NCBI GenBank assembly: GCA_017462345.1
Contig: JAFTRI010000008.1
Coordinates: 58,810 to 122,809 of the forward strand
DNA: 64,000 bases
Direction of reading: 5' to 3'
Source: Muribaculaceae bacterium
Lineage (GTDB): Bacteria > Bacteroidota > Bacteroidia > Bacteroidales > Muribaculaceae
A program made the translations under genes and the position numbers. This document shows positions 5,105 to 9,168 of this stretch, one piece after another. The notes under the pieces were generated by a model. The model did not search any database. It was not told where the DNA came from and saw nothing but the letters and a program-made list of their open reading frames with translations. Numbering within the stretch: the stretch's first letter is position 1; each line of letters opens with the position of its first letter.

Positions 5105-5730
5105 TTCCTGGATTATTTCTGCAAAGATAGCGAAATAAATGCACAAACTACCAACGCAGGACATAACCTCCGGCAAAACAAACATCAGGGAAGTAATCAC
5201 ATTCCATCGAAAATATCACACGAAGGACGATATTATGACGTCACCAATATTGGACATCAAGCATTCTATCAGCATACAAAGTTGAAGAATGTAGTTATTC
5301 CTACTTCCATAACACATATCGGAAGACGGGCTTTTATGAATTGCGAGAACCTGGAGAGTGTCGTTATCCCGAATTCCGTAACAGATATTGGAATTAAAGC
5401 ATTCTCCGGTTGTAAAAGATTAAAGAATATAATCATCCCATCATCAGTTAAACATATCGGATGGGGCGCTTTCTTGAGTTGTGAAAAATTAGAGAACATT
5501 GCATATCATGCGTCAGCGAAAACAATCCATAACGATACTTTTGCCGAATGTTCCTCTTAGCGGAATGTTACCTGATGATTGGATGTACTATTATGAACAT
5601 TGGTGTGATCCATTTGAAGGAGTTGAAAAAGACTCATGCACTCTTTATGTACCGAAAGATTCAATAGAAAAATATAGAGAGAAACAGTTTTGGAGCGACT
5701 TTAATTATAAACGGATAATTTATGCTACGA
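5105..5730 (+). pseudogene. BspA-like LRR_5 surface protein remnant (truncated, frameshifted)
   Basis: In one frame, from about 5105 to 5560, the translation contains three to four BspA-type repeats (VTNIGHQAF, SITHIGRRAFMNCENLESVVIP, SVTDIGIKAFSGCKRLKNIIIP, SVKHIGWGAF) and stops after AECSS. A different frame then carries the expected family C-terminus: LPDDW, and CTLYVPKDSIEKYREKQFW followed by the final KRIIYA near 5726. There is no ATG or signal peptide in frame at the 5' end, and the frame switches near 5545-5565. I therefore read it as a decayed fragment of a surface leucine-rich protein of the treponemal BspA type. The intact gene was probably longer. The locus borders the Fic-nuclease cassette, which fits local rearrangement. 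Confidence 0.75.
5122..5129 (-). promoter_or_regulatory. -7 promoter box for dnaB
   Basis: TATCTTTG on the minus strand, about 22 bases upstream of the dnaB ATG. TTGG lies 21 bases further upstream as a possible -33 element. The box decides the dnaB start. Confidence 0.6.
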
Positions 5731-7850: not shown

Positions 7851-8765
7851 TTACTGAACAGTCCCAACGAAATGACCTATTGCATCATAAAATTCCCAAT
7901 CAAAAGACATCATATTTCCTACCGTCTTTATCTTCAATGTCCCATCTTCACGACCTTGACTAGAACCCCTCCAATTATACCATCCACCATATATCCAATA
8001 TCCACTCTTTGACTGAATATTATATGTTCCAGCTCTCCAATATTTATCTATACCTTCATAATAGGGTGTACAATAAACAAAAGTGGTACTTAAAGGAGTC
8101 AATTCTCCATTTGAGCCATAAAAGAACAAATATTTATAATTTGCACCTGTTCCTGTTGCATGAGAACATTTCATTTCAGCATAAGACAATTCATAAAAAT
8201 ATCCGTCAGATCTACGTAAATAGTTTACAAATGGAGGATTTTTATAATCCTCAGTTGTAGTACCAACACTTGATTGTCTTTTGTAAGTCTCATCTGTTCC
8301 AAATACCAGATTACCATCAGCATCAAATGACACGGAACACTGTCCTTCACTTGCATTATAAAATCCATCTTTCAACCACTCAAAATACAATGTGTTTTCT
8401 CTGATGTCCCACACAAATGCACGCCTGTAAATTCCGTCGTAATTATCGAACCGCTCAGTATATCCATTTCCGCCATCCAAGAAATAATAATAACGATTAG
8501 ATACGCTACGATACCATTTCCCTATAATATTTTCTTTTAAGATATCTTCTTCTGTTTTTTCGTCAACGTTCGAGCCATTCTGATCATTACCAGAATCGTC
8601 AGGATCTTCTCCATTATCTTCATCATCTGAGGAATCGTCTCCAAAATCATTCTTTTCTATCTCGTCAACGACTTTGGGTTCATCCGGCTCATCGTCACAA
8701 GACGAAAAGCTTACGCACGCAAACATTACGGCAAAAAACAATGCCAACAATTTAAATTTATTCAT
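7851..8765 (-). CDS. Putative lipoprotein with acidic linker, unknown function
   Basis: A 304-residue protein. The ATG at 8765 gives a lipoprotein signal (MNKFKLLALFFAVMFACVSF, then SSC with Cys23), followed by DDEPDEP, the acidic sorting context typical of Bacteroidetes surface lipoproteins. Residues about 24-75 form a very acidic, Gly/Asn-containing linker. A compact domain rich in Tyr, Trp and Gly follows, beginning near IIGKWYRSVSNRYYYF; the GKW start resembles lipocalin-like lipoprotein domains but is too weak to name. The frame stays open upstream (to 8858) through a structured leader, which I interpret as untranslated. Expression may be controlled by that leader. AT-rich codon use in the C-terminal half differs visibly from the neighbours. 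Confidence 0.75.
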   Translation of the reverse strand: MNKFKLLALFFAVMFACVSFSSCDDEPDEPKVVDEIEKNDFGDDSSDDEDNGEDPDDSGNDQNGSNVDEKTEEDILKENIIGKWYRSVSNRYYYFLDGGNGYTERFDNYDGIYRRAFVWDIRENTLYFEWLKDGFYNASEGQCSVSFDADGNLVFGTDETYKRQSSVGTTTEDYKNPPFVNYLRRSDGYFYELSYAEMKCSHATGTGANYKYLFFYGSNGELTPLSTTFVYCTPYYEGIDKYWRAGTYNIQSKSGYWIYGGWYNWRGSSQGREDGTLKIKTVGNMMSFDWEFYDAIGHFVGTVQ

Positions 8766-8819
8766 TTTACTATTACCTGTTTCCCAATCCCCAAGGAAAC
8801 GGTTAAATTGTTCAGACAT

Positions 8820-8907
8820 AAAAAAGGTGTGGAGATTGTATCTCTGTCTTATCCGCAATTCAGGTCTTGGCGTACCTCTAAGTTAGATAAGACGACAGCC
8901 CCACACC
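8820..8907 (-). terminator. Conditional intrinsic terminator in the leader
   Basis: The stem bases at 8899-8907 pair with 8826-8834, and an inner stem joins 8886-8893 with 8846-8853. Six A on the plus strand (8820-8825) give the U tract. It ends about 55 bases before the lipoprotein start codon. Confidence 0.6.
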
Positions 8908-9013
8908 GATAAAGCATATACTTGTCCCGTCTCGGGAATGGGTATAGCTACCGATGCAGGTGTCATCGTCTTTCATCTTCAACTTAGATTCTAACCGCCA
9001 AGTTTGAATTGCG
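8820..9013 (-). ncRNA. Structured leader RNA with competing terminator and anti-terminator folds
   Basis: On the minus strand, reading from 9013 down to 8820, there are three segments. Segment A (9013-8959) is complementary to segment B (8907-8854) in discontinuous blocks: TGAATTGCG/CGCAATTCA, CGCCAA/TTGGCG and AACTTAGA/TCTAAGTT. They enclose a perfect hairpin with stems TATAC/GTATA and TCCCG/CGGGA (8917-8946). Segment B can instead pair with segment C (8853-8826) through GGTGTGGGG/CTCCACACC (9 pairs, one G-U) and GTCTTATC/GATAAGAC. That fold is followed at once by six U. Fold B-C is thus a terminator and A-B an anti-terminator. This could be an attenuator or riboswitch for the lipoprotein gene, or a stand-alone small RNA of about 190 bases. 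No Rfam class was recognised. Confidence 0.55.
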
Positions 9014-9019
9014 AAGATA
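9012..9019 (-). promoter_or_regulatory. Possible -7 box for the structured leader
   Basis: TATCTTCG differs from TAnnTTTG at one base. If used, transcription would start near 9008 and remove a few bases of leader segment A, so the true start may lie a little upstream. Confidence 0.3.
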
Positions 9020-9041
9020 AAATTTCAATAACACCTTTTTC

Positions 9042-9057
9042 GGCGGAATATTCCGCC
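9042..9057. promoter_or_regulatory. Perfect 16-base palindrome, candidate operator
   Basis: GGCGGAATATTCCGCC is a perfect palindrome. It lies 22 bases upstream of the possible -7 box of the leader and about 110 bases upstream of the divergent ispE promoter. This is a suitable place for a dimeric regulator acting on the leader transcript; the regulator is unknown. Confidence 0.5.
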
Positions 9058-9168
9058 ATTCAACAAATTCTCGAAACCGTTGGGAGCTGACGATGCAGTC
9101 CCATTCCGGAATCGTTGACAAAATTAACCAATTTCGATGATATTGTATGCCGGTCAGCGGATTTTTCG

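Follow-up and report, generated by a model that had tools for sequence, protein, structure and literature searches.

A conserved, covarying two-state leader RNA, near certain in its structure and position, precedes a gene for a predicted lipoprotein on the minus strand of the window, the whole 64,000-nucleotide stretch of DNA analysed. Four segments, Z, A, B and C, are recognised at 9040-8820 (-) from the sequence and a reading of its folds, and these can be arranged in two ways: a two-hairpin fold in which Z pairs with A and B with C, the B-C helix being followed by six U, or a rod in which A pairs with B and Z with C, with the hypervariable helices P2 and P3 as bridges. The leader probably, at roughly 60%, serves the gene behind it as a transcription attenuator with the layout of the trp leader. 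If this is right, a gut-abundant bacterial order carries dispersed bistable leaders, unmodelled by Rfam, before surface and accessory genes.

Layout of the leader

The leader RNA is likely about 350 bases long, and its features are collected in Table 1. P5 and the nested central rod helix are mutually exclusive.

Table 1. Features of the leader and of the gene behind it, in window coordinates
Feature	Position	Strand	Basis
-7 promoter box, Bacteroides-type (TAnnTTTG), TAATTTTG	9119..9126	-	consensus match
Leader 5' hairpin, GGGA..TCCC arms	9082..9102	-	sequence; box-to-Z folding in 101 loci
Second short hairpin GGCGGAATATTCCGCC, of the longer-leader type	9042..9057	-	stem changes compensatory by eye, same-genus loci
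Segment Z (strand 1); partner A or C	9013..9036	-	covariation, permutation
P2 5' strand, hypervariable, complementary to 8855-8862	9005..9012	-	column coupling
CTTGGC, 5' strand of central rod helix or loop-loop contact	8997..9002	-	covariation
P3 5' strand, hypervariable, complementary to 8879-8884	8981..8986	-	column coupling
Segment A (strand 2); partner Z or B	8958..8980	-	covariation, permutation
Variable tip hairpin between A and B, containing 8917-8946	8908..8957	-	fold, alignment
Segment B (strand 3); partner A (antiterminator) or C (terminator)	8885..8907	-	covariation
P3 3' strand	8879..8884	-	column coupling
P5, AGGT 8874-8877 with ACCT 8862-8865; loop contains GCCAAG 8866-8871	8862..8877	-	covariation
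P2 3' strand	8855..8862	-	column coupling
Segment C (strand 4); partner B (terminator) or Z	8826..8854	-	covariation
U6 run directly 3' of C	8820..8825	-	sequence
Start-proximal hairpin GTTTCC..GGAAAC, GGGGATT loop	8779..8800	-	sequence; stem count in spacers
Downstream gene, 304-aa predicted lipoprotein, ATG at 8765	7851..8765	-	lipobox by eye

An earlier note on this DNA had placed segments A, B and C correctly, with B pairing with A, as it does in the minimum-energy fold, or with C. It had also taken the A-B and B-C folds to exclude each other and proposed a look for covariation, which is found in both stems. The six U that it saw after B-C lie at 8825-8820, and 113 of 114 homologues have at least five T among the 8 nt that follow C. 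Conserved copies, which it suggested seeking, exist and stand at gene starts, and its impression that no class fits agrees with an Rfam search of the window, which gave no match. The extent that it gave the element holds for A, B and C and falls short of Z (9013-9036), of the -7 box at 9119-9126 and of the small hairpin (8779-8800) that precedes the ATG at 8765. The supposed perfect hairpin at 8917-8946 is interrupted and variable, and forms the tip of the A-B arm.

Energy and order of folding

The minimum-energy fold of the minus strand, at -77.8 kcal/mol, contains the A-B pairing (8959-9013 with 8854-8907), and 0 of 200 dinucleotide shuffles fold as low (z -7.2). The plus strand folds almost equally well (z -6.1) because the element is a near-palindrome; energy therefore does not settle the direction, which is taken from the promoter box, the T-run and the gene. 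In the window the rod of minimum energy (-87.9) is more stable than the enforced two-hairpin fold (-66.9) by about 21 kcal/mol, which makes a pure equilibrium switch unlikely. Over 114 sequences the enforced helix sets are nearly equal, with medians of -66.2 for the two hairpins and -66.1 for the rod and a free minimum of -85.2.

Prefixes of the window sequence were folded from Z onward, without the 5' hairpins. The Z-A hairpin is present in the best fold at 75-165 nt, the rod is dominant at 180-221 nt, after synthesis of the GCCAAG side, and the U-run follows at 216-221 nt. Given this order (Z-A, then the rod, then the U-run), the choice would be a race that turns on whether Z-A opens before C has been synthesised. 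A simple terminator scan flagged no terminator at 8820; its loop limit of 3-8 puts long loops outside its reach.

Covariation and conservation

Both folds are supported by changes on the two sides of their pairs. For the rod, 96.2% of cells are paired in 30 sequences found by blastn and 24 of 57 pairs show both-side change, amounting to 174 both-side cells against 47.8 in shuffles, which here and below ignore the relatedness of the sequences, and at most 42 in slid controls. In the same 30 sequences the two-hairpin fold shows both-side change in 12 of 39 pairs, with 35 both-side cells where shuffles give 10.1 and slid controls no more than 18, totals that include one 4-bp helix set at wrong columns (7.7% paired); the Z-A helices have 97.9% and 96.7% of cells paired. 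B-C together with P5, in 60 sequences, is 98.3% paired; both sides change in 13 of 22 pairs, and the 67 cells of this kind compare with a shuffle value of 17.6 and a slid-control maximum of 18. Taken separately in these 60, the two B-C helices have 98.7% and 98.0% of cells paired and both-side change in 11 of 18 pairs, and P5 has 98.3% of cells paired and both-side change in 2 of 4.

Methods that start from no assumed helix point the same way. RNAalifold, run on the 30 sequences aligned without structure, returned 60 pairs, 25 of them with both-side changes, and in an unfiltered G-test list for 30 sequences the top 11 column pairs are all in P2 or P3, couplings other than base pairs appearing lower down. 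The sample was then widened to 146 loci, the named and unnamed ones partly from the same contigs, from which 21 were dropped (short flank or end pattern missing) and the remaining 125 reduced to 114 unique sequences. When column pairs with 70% or more complementarity are considered, the strongest signals in these sequences come from P2, P3, the central helix, B-C and P5; column pair 41:174 of the central helix is GC in 73 and CG in 40 of the 114.

A single base before the central helix, C or T, covaries with two mutually exclusive partners. Of the 93 sequences with C, 91 have G as both the local and the distal (P2) partner; all 18 with T have A as the local partner, and 15 of these 18 have A as the distal (P2) partner (111 of the 114 sequences were parsed, and 13 of the 18 T variants are of one loop type). 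The local and P2 pairings of one base are impossible together. This triple covariation is the most telling test of the two folds, and it makes the leader well suited as a natural system in which to test cotranscriptional strand exchange sharply.

The pairings were also scored in divergent copies, matched by a covariance model of the B-C part built from 60 sequences (R1), by comparing the complementarity of each locus's own segments with that of permuted ones. In 23 loci, taken from 30 (L164-L193) after exclusion of four cut by a contig end and three close copies and including three strong rather than weak R1 matches (L167, L168 and L171), the z values are 6.0 for Z-A, 6.0 for B-C, 2.8 for A-B and 7.0 for Z-C, against -0.9 to 1.5 for eight control pairings in the same loci. 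A-B is thus the weakest of the pairings tested, and in L183, L186 and L193 its best computed match differs from the expected one. Conservation in turn is highest in columns paired in both folds (0.942, against 0.892, 0.729 and 0.698).

Promoter, U-run and gene start

A Bacteroides -7 consensus, TAnnTTTG, is given in PMC7366714, and a box of this form lies at most 200 nt upstream of Z in 105 of 111 loci. Its distance is narrowly set: 103 of the 119 boxes counted sit 51-100 nt upstream of Z, and 49 fall in one 10-nt bin, against a background of 0.0046 per window (1512 windows). The segment from box to Z is itself structured, folding more stably than mononucleotide shuffles in 101 loci with a median z of -2.85 and z < -1.5 in 87%. 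At the other end, a gene start falls within the 117 nt after the element in 80 of 110 loci, compared with 145 of 1795 random windows (8%) and 4 of 103 mirrored antisense windows; in 17 of 114 loci no ORF of at least 55 aa stands at the expected place. The consensus box and the position at gene starts together point to a leader downstream of a putative promoter.

The spacer between the T-run and the start contains a perfect 5-bp stem with a loop of 8-14 nt, often purine-rich, in 67 of 113 cases, and shuffled spacers contain one in a mean of 29.9 and a maximum of 42. By contrast, taken as a whole the 60-nt spacer folds no more stably than its shuffles (median z -0.09). No upstream ORF conserved in place or frame was seen by inspection of 101 loci; some ATG frame of at least eight codons is present in 75 of the 101, its start and frame varying among those printed.

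As a separate observation, in 80 loci with a short leader the flank 5' of TAnnTTTG is complementary to the segment before Z (z 7.3), with z 2.8 for a control segment and z 1.2 for the longer-leader type. Since the control segment also exceeds permutation, the value of 7.3 must be due in part to relatedness, and since the promoter flank would lie outside the transcript, its complementarity is not explained by the RNA model.

Proposed mechanism

The start site, the termination, the choice of the ON state and the bias of that choice are what we infer from the layout and folds above. Transcription would start near 9112, and Z-A (1:2) would form first, so that B would stay free for C (3:4); B-C plus the U6 would then stop transcription near 8820, giving the OFF state. 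Alternatively, B may capture A (2:3), aided by a TTGGC/GCCAAG loop contact and by the gene-specific P2 and P3. This capture would refold the RNA into the long rod, in which Z sequesters C, and the polymerase would proceed into the gene, giving the ON state. Such a kinetic switch would be biased by whatever stabilises or opens the Z-A hairpin. As inspection shows no conserved reading frame and conserved unpaired sequence is scant, strand exchange or an RNA or protein partner is favoured over a classic aptamer.

A bolder version, tentative and in our estimate unlikely, dispenses with both ligand and leader peptide. The loop-loop contact and strand exchange would race the terminator in a self-contained kinetic switch, P2 and P3 would be tuning knobs for each gene, and a portable cartridge of promoter, switch and start hairpin would set a preset or noisy level of read-through gene by gene. 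If true, the cartridge would be an RNA counterpart to invertible promoters for surface and accessory genes.

Relation to known systems

The trp attenuator consists of segments 1-2-3-4, in which 1:2 and 3:4 alternate with 2:3. The leader has the same logic, with 1:2 and 3:4 (the terminator, with its U-run) set against 2:3 (the antiterminator) and a promoter box of its own; the terminator and antiterminator helices exclude each other and the U-run follows the terminator helix, as in four-segment attenuators generally. Unlike the trp attenuator, it has no upstream ORF conserved in place or frame on inspection, has an extra 1:4 pairing and the hypervariable P2 and P3, and precedes many unrelated genes and not one pathway.

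Rfam 15 gave no family at the gathering threshold for the window element and nothing credible at E up to 10. 6S RNA (RF00013) was considered and rejected: its best score in the element's own genome is 12.4 bits, against a gathering score of 46.4, and lies at a different place. The element resembles 6S RNA in its long rod, its length of about 200 nt and its own promoter box, but it occurs in several diverged copies before genes. In 20 divergent loci Rfam returned two matches at gathering, one to a tRNA (L173) and the other to DUF805 (L183).

The DUF805b (RF02914) and DUF805 (RF03081) motifs, reportedly from a 2017 paper, share with the element that several are often found per genome and, in loci read by eye, that they stand directly before start codons of varied Bacteroidales genes. 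These RNAs, however, span 35-68 nt near the start codon and have neither the four-strand switch nor the U-run. Among Bacteroidales genomes, 160 of 392 carry DUF805 and 79 of 119 carry DUF805b; neither model matches the window element, and both have 0 matches in the window genome. That DUF805 is the same element was rejected, as an R1 match lies just upstream in 0 of 20 DUF805 and 1 of 30 DUF805b loci fetched.

In L183 a DUF805 match, together with DUF805b below cut-off, lies between element and gene. The four-strand element of L183, L224 and, by eye, L228 stands directly before a DUF805b hairpin that occupies the place of the start-proximal hairpin; DUF805b may be a separate, exchangeable start-proximal module able to replace the small hairpin. 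A repeated stretch upstream of DUF805 was also seen by eye in L201, L203, L204, L209, L211 and L212 (TTATGGGCAAGTTTAAAAAACGACACAG... and a GACAAGAGAGCCACC part), and several DUF805 copies are spaced a few hundred to a thousand bases apart. This spacing and the upstream repeats look like gene-cassette arrays.

In the literature searched, no title or abstract opening describes the element, and a term search of PMC11109978 gave 0 matches. Palindromic Bacteroidetes candidates of 80-132 nt appear in PMC8040213, where they are given without sequence, and therefore no comparison with the element is possible. The element could sit unnamed in some supplementary list. It is best described as a new family within a type of device already known, and stands out by its portability, by its hypervariable bridging helices and by the direct covariation evidence for both of its states.

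Alternative explanations

The closest competitor to an attenuator is a free small RNA, in which the U-run would end transcription nearly always, in either fold, the rod would be the mature product acting in trans or binding a protein, and the downstream gene would be expressed by rare read-through. Some free RNAs, 6S among them, form long rods. Here the rod is the window's minimum-energy fold and, like the two-hairpin form, ends in a stem adjoining the U-run (AAAAAGGTGT with ACACCTTTTTT), which is why a terminated product is conceivable, and the -7 box and strong T-run would imply a unit of about 290 nt. Against such a product stand the polarity towards gene starts (80 of 110 loci, 4 of 103 in antisense) and the short stem enriched between U-run and start, and the 6S model does not match; this explanation is judged unlikely.

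A riboswitch for a small molecule or second messenger, using the same terminator and antiterminator, is less probable again and would have to be called doubtful. Second-messenger riboswitches are dispersed multi-copy leaders before unrelated genes, as this leader is, and a bistable terminator layout would suit one. The earlier note had suggested the hairpin between A and B as a place where a ligand or protein could act. A ligand pocket there gains no support from the homologues: this tip is variable among them, and of the 72 columns with conservation of at least 95%, only 11 lack a partner in each of the two folds. The downstream genes, moreover, indicate no common metabolite.

That the hairpin matters as DNA, in a mobile element (foldback, MITE or gene-cassette recombination site), is very improbable: the near-palindrome on both strands, the inverted ends AAAAGGTGT and ACACCTTTT, the accessory placement (the unit is in 0 of 9 same-genus ispE loci) and the promoter flank complementary to the segment before Z would fit, but orientation and distance to gene starts are fixed, the two exclusive folds covary, the -7 box and T-run are present, 30 downstream flanks (at most about 1.5 kb, often ending inside the gene) are shared in two locus pairs only, and there was no blastn match in plasmids and phages and no exact-pattern match in viral contigs. 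A foldback or MITE would have no fixed orientation to genes, which the sense and antisense counts given above contradict; an integron attC site or MITE, prompted by the inverted ends and diverse cargo, was put aside mainly for this fixed polarity.

Copies, spread and downstream genes

The attenuator-like leader is not confined to one locus. Three more clear copies, 85, 82 and 73% identical, stand elsewhere in the window genome, each close before an ORF. Two more R1 matches in this genome, at G000:C17:15232-15324 (-) and G000:C7:2413-2497 (-), with E values of 6.3e-8 and 8.8e-7, are probably divergent copies.

A search of relatives gave 33 matches in 18 of 61 genomes, all within the same family (18 of 37 genomes, against 0 of 24 from other families). 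A degenerate exact pattern running from Z to the central helix, biased to close relatives, was found in at least 116 stretches in named genomes. Carriers among the matches listed are Muribaculaceae and Bacteroidaceae MAGs, Phocaeicola coprocola DSM 17136, Bacteroides clarus YIT 12056, Bacteroides muris, Barnesiella sp. WM24 and Palleniella intestinalis; through the copies in Bacteroides clarus YIT 12056 and Phocaeicola coprocola DSM 17136 the element is testable in named isolates. The covariance model R1, in genome scans with stricter filters that lose weak matches, found 62 of 392 sampled Bacteroidales genomes at E up to 1e-4, and in a phylum-wide sample of 392 it found two genomes at E up to 1e-5, both Bacteroidales. 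R1 matches were inspected at locus level in 30 loci. The 22 weaker ones (L172-L193) resemble divergent homologues by eye, with cores GCTCACGC in A, GCGTGGGC in B and CCCACGC followed by a T-run in C.

The genes behind the leader are diverse, including BspA-type LRR proteins, lipoproteins, TerB and others. Among 97 downstream proteins, scanned up to 600 aa or the end of the locus, LRR_5/BspA was found in 23, TerB in 7, DUF4595 in 3, LytTR in 2 and Abi_2 in 1; the lipoprotein of the window has no Pfam family at E up to 0.001. In ten genomes of the genus that carry ispE, the nine other than the window's are without the lipoprotein in the fetched locus, and the 330 nt before ispE in these nine contain no such leader. 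The unit of leader plus gene is accessory.

Three loci, L063 (JAMPAQ010000001.1) and L100 and L141 (both JAMPDC010000001.1), carry the element under Pseudoflavonifractor or Staphylococcus titles. As it is otherwise seen in Bacteroidales, these names are probably wrong. In the window itself, an ORF at 5282-5560 (+) consists by eye of BspA-type repeats and looks like a fragment of the surface-protein class often found behind the leader.
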